A program made the translations under genes and the position numbers. From Butyrivibrio sp. (lineage in GTDB: Bacteria; Bacillota; Clostridia; Lachnospirales; Lachnospiraceae), in NCBI GenBank assembly GCA_017615275.1, contig JAGAAO010000025.1:25025-89024 (forward strand): DNA of 64,000 nt, written 5' to 3'. Within the stretch, counting starts at the first letter, position 1; every line of letters begins with the position of its first letter. Positions 35,733-37,034 of this stretch are shown here, in pieces. Under the pieces are notes generated by a model, which was given only the letters and a program-made list of their open reading frames with translations, was not told where the DNA came from and did not search any database.

Positions 35733-36362
35733 TCATCTGAAAAAGATTCTTCCGAGTGAGTAAACAATCTCATAGGTATTGTCCCAGAATTCGAATATGA
35801 CATGCGCCATTATAGGAATATATATATTCTTAGTAGCTATGTAAGCAATCGTAACAGGGAGAGACATCAGTATCCATTGCATTATCGCAACAGGTCCGTG
35901 TGCCCTGCTGAGTGCACAGATAAGGAGACTTGCAACGGTCAAAAGAATCATCTTTTTCTTATCACCGAATCTGATGATCGCCTTTCTGTAAAAAAGTTCC
36001 TCAGCAACAGGTTTCATTATAATCATCATGCACGCATAGATTATCGTCGGTATCAGATTATTAGGAACAATTATCCATACATTCTCTTTATAACTGTTTG
36101 GGTACAGCTGAGAAATATAATCTTTCAATTTGGATGCCGCAAACAAACCTGCAAACGTCACAAGGACGGGTAACCAAAACGTTTTTACTTCGCAAAAATA
36201 ACTGTTAAGCTTTCTGAACGAAAACTGTTTATTTATAAAATAAAAGTATATAAGCAGTCCGAGATAAAAAGCGAGAAATAAAACGAATGCCTGTTTAGGA
36301 AAAAATATTGTCAATATTATTAAAGCCAATTCCCATACGAACGGTATATATAAGTGTTTCAA
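35733..36362 (-). CDS. CPBP-family intramembrane glutamic protease
   Basis: A 209-aa membrane protein with about six helices and the CPBP/Abi (Rce1-like) motifs: AEELFYR (EExxxR), the following SRAHG histidine and the C-terminal AHVIFEFWDN. These proteases cleave within membranes and often concern bacteriocin immunity or signalling. The start is TTG at 36362, preceded by AGGAG; the ATG at 36386 falls inside the operator. A near-perfect promoter with a dyad over the transcript start is directly upstream. Confidence 0.8.
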   Translation of the reverse strand: MKHLYIPFVWELALIILTIFFPKQAFVLFLAFYLGLLIYFYFINKQFSFRKLNSYFCEVKTFWLPVLVTFAGLFAASKLKDYISQLYPNSYKENVWIIVPNNLIPTIIYACMMIIMKPVAEELFYRKAIIRFGDKKKMILLTVASLLICALSRAHGPVAIMQWILMSLPVTIAYIATKNIYIPIMAHVIFEFWDNTYEIVYSLGRIFFR

Positions 36363-36374
36363 GGTACACTCCTT

Positions 36375-36398
36375 TTTAAAGTACAATTACACTTTAAA
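36375..36398. promoter_or_regulatory. Dyad operator at the CPBP transcript start
   Basis: Perfect 8-bp arms TTTAAAGT / ACTTTAAA are separated by 8 nt. The dyad lies just downstream of the -10 box and covers the expected start point, the position of a repressor operator. Confidence 0.55.
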
Positions 36399-36557: not shown

Positions 36558-36789
36558 CTACGTGAATGATCCGCTTTTTCTTACGCTTTTCACGTAGTTT
36601 CCTGCTTATTTTCCGCTCACCTACGTGAGCTCCTGCCCAATATTGGTTTGCTTTCACGTAAATATTTCCGAATTTTGGCGAAATCTACGTGAGAGAGAAA
36701 GGATTTTGAGGTTTGCTTCACGTAGACACGCCCGGGTTTCAGTCCTAATCTACGGGAAAAAAGAACGATTATTAGTCACATACCCGTAA
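36558..36789. repeat. Array of eight alternating inverted 8-mers at 32-bp spacing
   Basis: CTACGTGA and its reverse complement TCACGTAG alternate at 36558, 36590, 36621, 36654 (TCACGTAA), 36685, 36718, 36750 (CTACGGGA) and 36782 (ACCCGTAA). Start-to-start distances are 32, 31, 33, 31, 33, 32 and 32. The sequences between are unrelated. In the last pair the T-to-G change in one arm is matched by A-to-C in the other, keeping TACGGG/CCCGTA pairing. They could form four hairpins with 24-25 nt loops, or be binding sites on one DNA face. Lies in gene-free DNA; the stretch 36430-36557 before it is G/C-rich with no gene. Confidence 0.75.
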
Positions 36790-36871: not shown

Positions 36872-37034
36872 GACACTCGTATAGAACCCCAACTGCAATA
36901 CAAGTGTCTATTTCGAAGAAAACTCCCTTGATTTAAGCAAATCCGACACTTGCCAAGAAGCTCAATCGATTTACAAGTGTTCACACCACCTGTTTCAGAC
37001 ACTCCTCCCGCAATCCACTGCCATATCAAGTGTC
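36872..37034. repeat. Array of three hairpins GACACT-N-AGTGTC with constant loops
   Basis: Three units of GACACT(T/C)(G/C), exactly 21 nt of unrelated sequence, then CAAGTGT(C/T): 36872-36908, 36945-36981 and 36998-37034. Gaps between units are 36 and 16 nt. The stem differs from the array 80 nt upstream but the design is the same: a constant 6-8 bp stem and a variable loop of constant length. No gene overlaps. Function unknown. Confidence 0.7.

Follow-up and report, generated by a model that had tools for sequence, protein, structure and literature searches.

An array of eight short half-sites in alternating orientation, at 36558..36789 of the window (the whole stretch of Butyrivibrio sp. 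DNA that we analysed, 64,000 nucleotides), is probably, at a rough probability of 0.6, the solo (orphan) non-coding half of a two-part module whose other half is a nuclease gene, the module being a selfish element that resembles the RAYT/REP-BIME systems. On our best reading the same genome has the nuclease-bearing copy of this module on C1, the window array being a dispersed solo one in which two half-sites have decayed.

The window array and its surroundings

The features in and around the array are as follows (window positions).

36558..36789, no strand: whole array, eight alternating half-sites, word YTACGTGA, C1 nuclease class, solo
36558..36565, + strand: half-site 1, CTACGTGA
36590..36597, - strand: half-site 2, TCACGTAG
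36621..36628, + strand: half-site 3, CTACGTGA
36654..36661, - strand: half-site 4, TCACGTAA
36685..36692, + strand: half-site 5, CTACGTGA
36718..36725, - strand: half-site 6, TCACGTAG
36750..36757, + strand: half-site 7, CTACGGGA, diverged
36782..36789, - strand: half-site 8, ACCCGTAA, diverged
36872-37034, no strand: second array, diverged, solo, other word GACACTYG / CAAGTGTC
35736..36386, - strand: neighbour gene for an Rce1-like (CPBP) membrane protease, outside the element
36428-36400, - strand: promoter-like site of the Rce1-like gene, between that gene and the window array

Rechecking of the positions confirmed eight motifs of alternating orientation at every start that an earlier sequence-only reading had proposed, in DNA that is gene-free as that reading held. 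The steps between them are, in order, 32, 31, 33, 31, 33, 32 and 32 bp, so that the spacing of 31–33 bp stands and the strict 32-bp rhythm claimed for it does not; the step of a '> <' pair is 32–33 and that of a '< >' pair 31–32. The array is far above chance level: a word-blind scan of 461 kb of the window's genome recovered it, and a single dinucleotide shuffle of that sequence yielded 0 arrays of at least five motifs. The nuclease itself is absent from the window (no match by tblastn), and the array was present within 1.5 kb of the orthologous Rce1-like gene in 0 of 29 relatives, which are too distant to reveal an insertion junction. One of these relatives (L237) has an unrelated 4-motif chain at the orthologous locus.

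The second array that had been said to adjoin the first does exist and is of similar design, but it is weaker and its steps are less regular (29, 44, 29, 24 and 29; the regular chain detected comprises 4 motifs). Its 29+44 step belongs to the seven-turn class (73–76 bp) that is also seen upstream of other nucleases, its word class recurs in the same genome at C82:131836 (L230), and the exact GACACTTG pair is found in 2 of 79 genomes of the genus. No cognate nuclease for it was identified in the window's genome (3.18 Mb, 85% complete). The word upstream of one nuclease remnant, L112, is related to that of the second array (GGAGTGTC).

The pair TACGKGA-N21..26-TCMCGTA has 36 matches on 10 contigs of the window's genome (reversed control, 0). 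Ten arrays there carry the CTACGTGA word, the window array being one among them, and the array of this word on C1 lies directly upstream of the nuclease gene C1:24658. Most arrays of the word have 8 or 10 half-sites, with '>' first and '<' last. The spacers of the genome's own arrays share a diluted common sequence, and positional homology among those of nine arrays was not significant in most comparisons. The matched change seen in the last pair of the window array does not amount to a general rule, as among those pairs of the own arrays that include a GGG-type motif the partner matches in two (C36 and C90) and does not match in three (C26, C36 and C89). Outside the arrays TACGTGA is not avoided (observed/expected 1.09, 602 kb); single sites of the word therefore appear to be tolerated. 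Restriction-like behaviour was rejected on this lack of avoidance, and across nuclease clusters, compared with neighbour families unannotated, no neighbour other than site-specific ones recurs.

As for other genomes, several of those searched carry the phased array, the sequence-only reading having proposed such a search. Within Butyrivibrio the window's word pair is present in 32 of 79 genomes (21 with at least two pairs and 11 with exactly one), and in a family-wide sample it is present in 9 of 299, with several pairs each in G004 and G290, which belong to other genera; since the reversed control gives one match each in 12 of the 79 genus genomes, lone pattern matches in such surveys are near chance and carry little weight. 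Among 66 genus genomes that lack the cognate nuclease, 11 still have at least two pairs, i.e., solo arrays.

A predicted nuclease encoded beside the arrays

The partner of the arrays was found by comparing 16-kb neighbourhoods, in which an array often lies immediately upstream of one gene; in the window's genome this is C1:24658, encoding a 266-aa protein. Proteins of the family are 260–300 aa long, with a C-terminal PD-(D/E)XK-like nuclease domain and a distinct N-terminal region. The C1 protein had no match in Pfam, NCBIfam or PDB, and for the family no informative match was found in Pfam, NCBIfam, PHROGs or PDB; the C-terminal half of the C1 protein matches the end of PADLOC PDC-S68 (E 3.6e-27), over ~112 C-terminal residues at profile positions 1103–1218 of 1221. 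Across 67 homologs the residues E163, D194, E205, W208, E209 and H210 are invariant, and these we take to be a PD-(D/E)XK-type catalytic motif (E ... D ... E-x-K-like). From the PADLOC similarity and this motif we read the C1 family as a predicted PD-(D/E)XK-type nuclease. A Y1_Tnp-type (HUH tyrosine transposase) Pfam match was found in none of the 67 members.

Searches by protein sequence returned 157 relatives from the genome collection, of which 80 were kept. The nuclease has relatives in 69 of the 79 genomes of the genus (9 matches in one genome at most; 7 in the window's genome, 5 of them near full length and 2 fragments), and in 33 of 391 genomes of a class-wide sample. In phage records it is found in 3 of 50,697 (distant; one near full length, 35% identity), in plasmid records in 4 of 72,556 (distant, domain only) and in viral contigs at 8 loci in 2.9 million, all distant; given that these matches are rare and distant, a phage origin of the nuclease was rejected. 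Across 76 loci, compared by nuclease cluster with families left unannotated, there was no recurrent partner gene beyond site-specific neighbours. The downstream side of guaA is a hot spot (e.g., L090:7598-8932), holding 16 of the 76 loci and four nuclease clusters, each <60% identical to the others; guaA (GMP synthase) was Pfam-confirmed at two loci. At L131:2113-6967 there are two nucleases 3.4 kb apart whose upstream arrays have different words, TACGGGTG and CTACGCGC, and at L296 the nuclease is flanked by arrays on both sides, with 10 motifs upstream and 18 downstream.

Nuclease genes and arrays go together. We ran a word-blind search for alternating chains with regular steps at 92 non-redundant homologs, which remained of 126 nuclease matches once 5 with a missing N-terminus and 29 duplicates had been dropped. 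An upstream array of at least five motifs is present at 53 of the 92, and of at least six motifs at 42, against 0 of 920 dinucleotide shuffles at either threshold; in downstream regions the counts are 2/88 and 0/88, respectively. Ten of the 92 loci had been fetched because of their arrays, and with these removed 47 of the 82 loci found by protein alone have an upstream array. By group, upstream arrays are found at 41/61 loci in Lachnospiraceae (same-genus genomes included), 6/8 in Treponema, 5/21 in Fibrobacter and 1/2 in other Clostridia. In a held-out set from the class-wide sample (32 loci, of which 25 offered sufficient upstream sequence for scoring), 10 of 16 full-length homologs have at least five motifs (shuffles, 0/250); arrays were found with 0/7 proteins consisting of the nuclease domain only and with 0/2 weak full-length homologs (L311 and L312).

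The words upstream of the nucleases are diverse, and include CTACGTGA, TACTTGCC (14 sites), ACTTCGCC (18), AGGCATAT (13), TACCGGCA, TACGTCCC, CCCTGTTG and TACATACT; in the window's genome each of the four nucleases C1, C80, C82 and C72 has a word of its own. Mean word similarity is 0.89 at nuclease identities of at least 65% (76 pairs; 53 arrays), 0.59 at 50–65% (256 pairs), 0.50 at 40–50% (398 pairs) and 0.50 below 40% (648 pairs), with scrambled words at 0.46; this set, like those used for covariation and column conservation below, includes many related arrays, which makes p-values optimistic. At the level of sequence, then, the word changes with the nuclease: close nucleases share it and distant ones mostly do not.

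Helical phasing of the half-sites

The pair periods of 22 word classes cluster near 53, 63.5, 74 and 84 bp, i.e., at multiples of ~10.6 bp, which is one helical turn of DNA (51.6–54 bp, n = 3; 62–65, n = 9; 73–76, n = 5; 84–85.5, n = 2; 95.7, n = 1; 105–106, n = 2; those longer than 86 bp are based on chains of 5 motifs). The best common pitch is 10.6 bp (R = 0.88, vs. 0.76 at 10.0, 0.84 at 11.0 and 0.57 at 12), with a Rayleigh p of ~4e-8 for phasing before correction for the choice of pitch, and a held-out set of ten periods gave R = 0.86 at 10.5. When half-sites are registered on their shared TAC (21 arrays without TAC being left out), the outer distance of the '> <' pair is 37–39 bp in 28 of 32 arrays, the exceptions being L128 and L133 (42 bp), one L131 array (36) and L146 (33), and the linker between pairs is 25–27, 35–38 or 46–47 bp. 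Because the outer distance is constant while the linkers step, the '> <' pair looks like one rigid unit, with linkers that vary by whole turns. Of the interpretations that the sequence-only reading had offered, a phased DNA-binding platform, 32 bp being about three helical turns, fits best with pair periods that come in steps of the helical repeat.

Across 49 distinct arrays with the window's word (343 half-sites; the calling allowed one mismatch at most, a bias towards conservation) TACGTG is an almost fixed core, mismatches fall almost only at positions 1, 6 and 8, the middle of the spacers is rich in A/T, and the pair period is 63–64 bp in 226 of 245 cases. At the variable position 1 there is no covariation within '> <' pairs (p = 0.62, n = 156; 49 arrays), and '< >' neighbours agree (p = 0.0006, n = 116; related arrays counted separately), an agreement that we attribute to recent unit duplication. 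Thirteen related arrays in front of guaA-type nucleases have 53 of 64 half-site columns invariant vs. 75 of 167 spacer columns; by this column count half-sites are evidently conserved while spacers drift.

In CRISPR arrays, direct repeats of ~23–50 bp all point the same way, and the spacers between them are unique and acquired. We rejected a CRISPR on the design of the repeats (8 bp and alternating) and on the spacers, which appear to be related through unit duplication; the sequence-only reading had likewise set the window array apart from CRISPRs and simple tandem repeats, and the alternating 8-bp half-sites bear it out.

Dispersal of the arrays

Butyrivibrio hungatei NK4A153 (G301) has one such nuclease, with half-sites TACGGG/TACACGTA, and five solo arrays of that nuclease's class, on its C1, C2 (two) and C6 (two). 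In the close relatives G302 and G366, with flanks that are 81–96% identical, the NK4A153-type nuclease is absent at the locus and there is no such array among the candidates scored (40 of 73–93 first-look candidates per genome). The slot of the nuclease is taken in G302 by a different 6-motif array, and in G366 by a transposase-like gene (Pfam HTH_38; IS30-like by eye) together with array-like debris. A solo array on C2 of NK4A153 sits in a 559-bp insertion that corresponds to 5 bp in G366 and 24 bp in G302, between flanks 87–98% identical to those genomes; such an insertion with an empty site is how a transposable element is recognised, and no clear target duplication was seen at this empty site. 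The 64-bp units of this array are nearly identical, and thus arrays seem to grow by unit duplication. By eye, one end has the same sequence in several of the NK4A153 solo arrays. Taken together, the genome comparisons indicate clearly that the arrays are dispersed copies and that at least one of them was inserted, the site being empty in close relatives.

One class of copies resembles a MITE:

L074:7849-8154; also L076, L078, L084, L104 and L105: MITE-like element

This 308-bp element has 22-bp inverted ends (CAATGTCATTTAGATAAGAAAA) around an array of the CTACGTGA class, and is found at six loci in five genomes of two genera, with one copy shortened and small differences in two. Because an apparent MITE carries this solo family, the spread of these MITE-borne arrays needs no nuclease. 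The other arrays examined, the window's included, differ in lacking such ends, the exact 18-bp MITE end being found only in MITE-type loci.

Interpretation and comparison with known systems

At other loci the nuclease gene is immediately preceded by an array of the word that goes with it, and in the reading that we favour, i.e., a selfish module of which the window array is the orphan half, the protein would recognise the half-sites, probably via its N-terminal region. A dimer would occupy each '> <' pair, with a constant geometry of ~three turns, and whole-turn linkers would line the dimers up along the same face of the DNA; the resulting filament or wrap, lying over the gene's own promoter or 5' region, may both restrain and autoregulate a toxic nuclease. 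Cutting or nicking by the nuclease at arrays would drive their growth by 63–64 bp units and their copying to new sites, which would make the module a selfish element of the RAYT/REP-BIME kind; some arrays would also travel as cargo of an unrelated miniature transposon. Binding, cutting and the mode of spread by the nuclease are the steps that we infer. Several observations count against this explanation: the '< >' agreement at the variable base is not predicted by independent sites, the similarity of spacers in the own arrays does not clearly follow array position, and there are homologs for which the search gave no array of at least five motifs (39/92, with few arrays in Fibrobacter, 5/21, and none at L311 and L312), nuclease-less genomes with solo arrays and MITE-borne arrays, as well as the lack of a clear target duplication.

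According to the published account (Nunvar 2010, PMC2817692), RAYT/REP-BIME systems have alternating, regularly spaced intergenic repeats with an adjoining enzyme gene, enzyme and repeat co-vary, and there are dispersed non-autonomous arrays whose copy number is linked to the presence of the enzyme. The likeness is that the nuclease arrays alternate, are regularly spaced, lie beside a cognate enzyme gene that co-varies with them, and have dispersed copies. The enzyme differs, being PD-(D/E)XK-like, whereas RAYT is an HUH tyrosine transposase (Y1_Tnp). REP sequences are 20–40 bp palindromes with GTAG/GGAG tags, while the units here are single ~8-bp half-sites, not tagged REP palindromes; moreover, their spacing is in whole helical turns, and the array of 6–18 sites lies mostly on the 5' side, whereas RAYT has two flanking REPs. 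The module is best read as working like RAYT/REP-BIME with an unrelated enzyme and repeat. Tn7-type ends, with TnsA and TnsB, also combine a PD-(D/E)XK nuclease with multiple phased binding sites in a mobile element, and the present system shares the multiple phased sites and, as predicted, the type of nuclease; it differs in having no TnsB-like transposase beside the nuclease and one symmetric array instead of two distinct ends. PADLOC PDC-S68 has a homologous C-terminal nuclease domain, but in proteins of 1200+ aa, of which the array family lacks the remainder and has its own N-terminal region instead; arrays accompany only the small nuclease family, with 0 of 4 large viral proteins tested having one.

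The nuclease could, alternatively, bind the upstream array for autoregulation only, as some homing endonucleases and restriction controllers do by binding near their own gene, with solo arrays as relics or as passengers captured by other mobile elements and not moved by the nuclease. The arrays that end 30–60 bp ahead of the start codon at the C1 and guaA-type loci would suit an operator, as would the nuclease remnants next to retained arrays (L087, L106 and L112) and the one solo family inside a MITE; we nonetheless judge this unlikely, as operators need neither 6–18 sites nor dispersal, some nucleases also have arrays downstream (L092, L131, L147, L152 and L296), and the NK4A153 solo arrays occupy five places, are absent in relatives and include one clean insertion. 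A role in defence or competition, with the nuclease attacking incoming DNA and chromosomal arrays serving as decoys or stores that keep it from acting, or as marks of self, we consider less probable still. The PDC-S68 domain comes from a candidate phage-defence protein, and the many divergent copies per genome and patchy distribution would be in keeping with defence; yet the match covers the nuclease domain only, no defence-type neighbour recurs among the 76 loci (families unannotated), and array-free homologs are common.

The window array had also been thought a possible hairpin-RNA array, with constant stems and variable loops, and such arrays might yield small RNAs, perhaps guides for the nuclease. 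Their inverted repeats can fold, they lie 5' of the nuclease, and the agreement of '< >' neighbours at position 1 could be taken the same way, but the fold z of ~ -2.5 on both strands is of a size that inverted repeats alone can produce, Rfam has no match to the window array, '> <' pairs do not covary, and the spacers, which have a diluted sequence in common and stem from duplication of units, are unlike acquired guides. The periods, moreover, follow the DNA helix, a quantisation with no obvious meaning for RNA, and we rejected RNA hairpins; the idea keeps only a very small share of our belief. Equally improbable to us is that a host protein binds the arrays as regulatory or chromosome-organising sites, the nuclease association being hitch-hiking: some solo arrays do lie close upstream of genes (that at C42 ~45 bp before an ATG, and the window array upstream of the Rce1-like gene), but within a single genome each of the different words goes with its own nuclease (C1, C80, C82 and C72), word similarity follows nuclease identity, and the array is not conserved at the orthologous site.

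Beyond the window array, we put forward tentatively, at somewhat less than even odds, a new class of selfish element made up of a stand-alone PD-(D/E)XK-type nuclease and a whole-turn array, in which a dimer filament would coat the array and the nuclease would copy arrays to new sites, with dozens of orthogonal word/nuclease pairs among rumen Lachnospiraceae, Treponema and Fibrobacter, several of them to a genome. A literature search of open-licence PMC papers found no paper on nuclease-linked alternating arrays. If the proposal is true, the RAYT/REP lifestyle would have been invented a second time, independently and with another class of enzyme, and nature would provide a collection of orthogonal nucleases that bind DNA and whose words are legible from the sequence beside their genes; an entire category of repeats between the genes of rumen bacteria would be explained as well. 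The helix-quantised spacing predicts directly how the protein would assemble on DNA.

Further arrays and repeats

The 461-kb sample of the window's genome contains solo arrays with further words, and a solo array of TCAACAGG (L261) in this genome has the same word as the C82 nuclease. Another solo array there, at L268:16219-16477, has the word CCAGATAA, steps of 29/46 and 8 motifs, and at L277:8464-8655 there is an alternating CATCATCA chain (31/20), possibly a coding repeat. In NK4A153, unlike half-sites, TACGGGY and TACGTGTA, alternate at L329:4020-4390, L331, L332 and L336, and a further array (TATGACCC, steps 30/24) lies at L331:5050-5303, not far from a solo array with another word. The solo array of L004 (C26) has a longer dispersed inverted repeat on both sides, at ~1151-1250 and 1727-1990, and L007 and L010 have a common dispersed repeat near their arrays.
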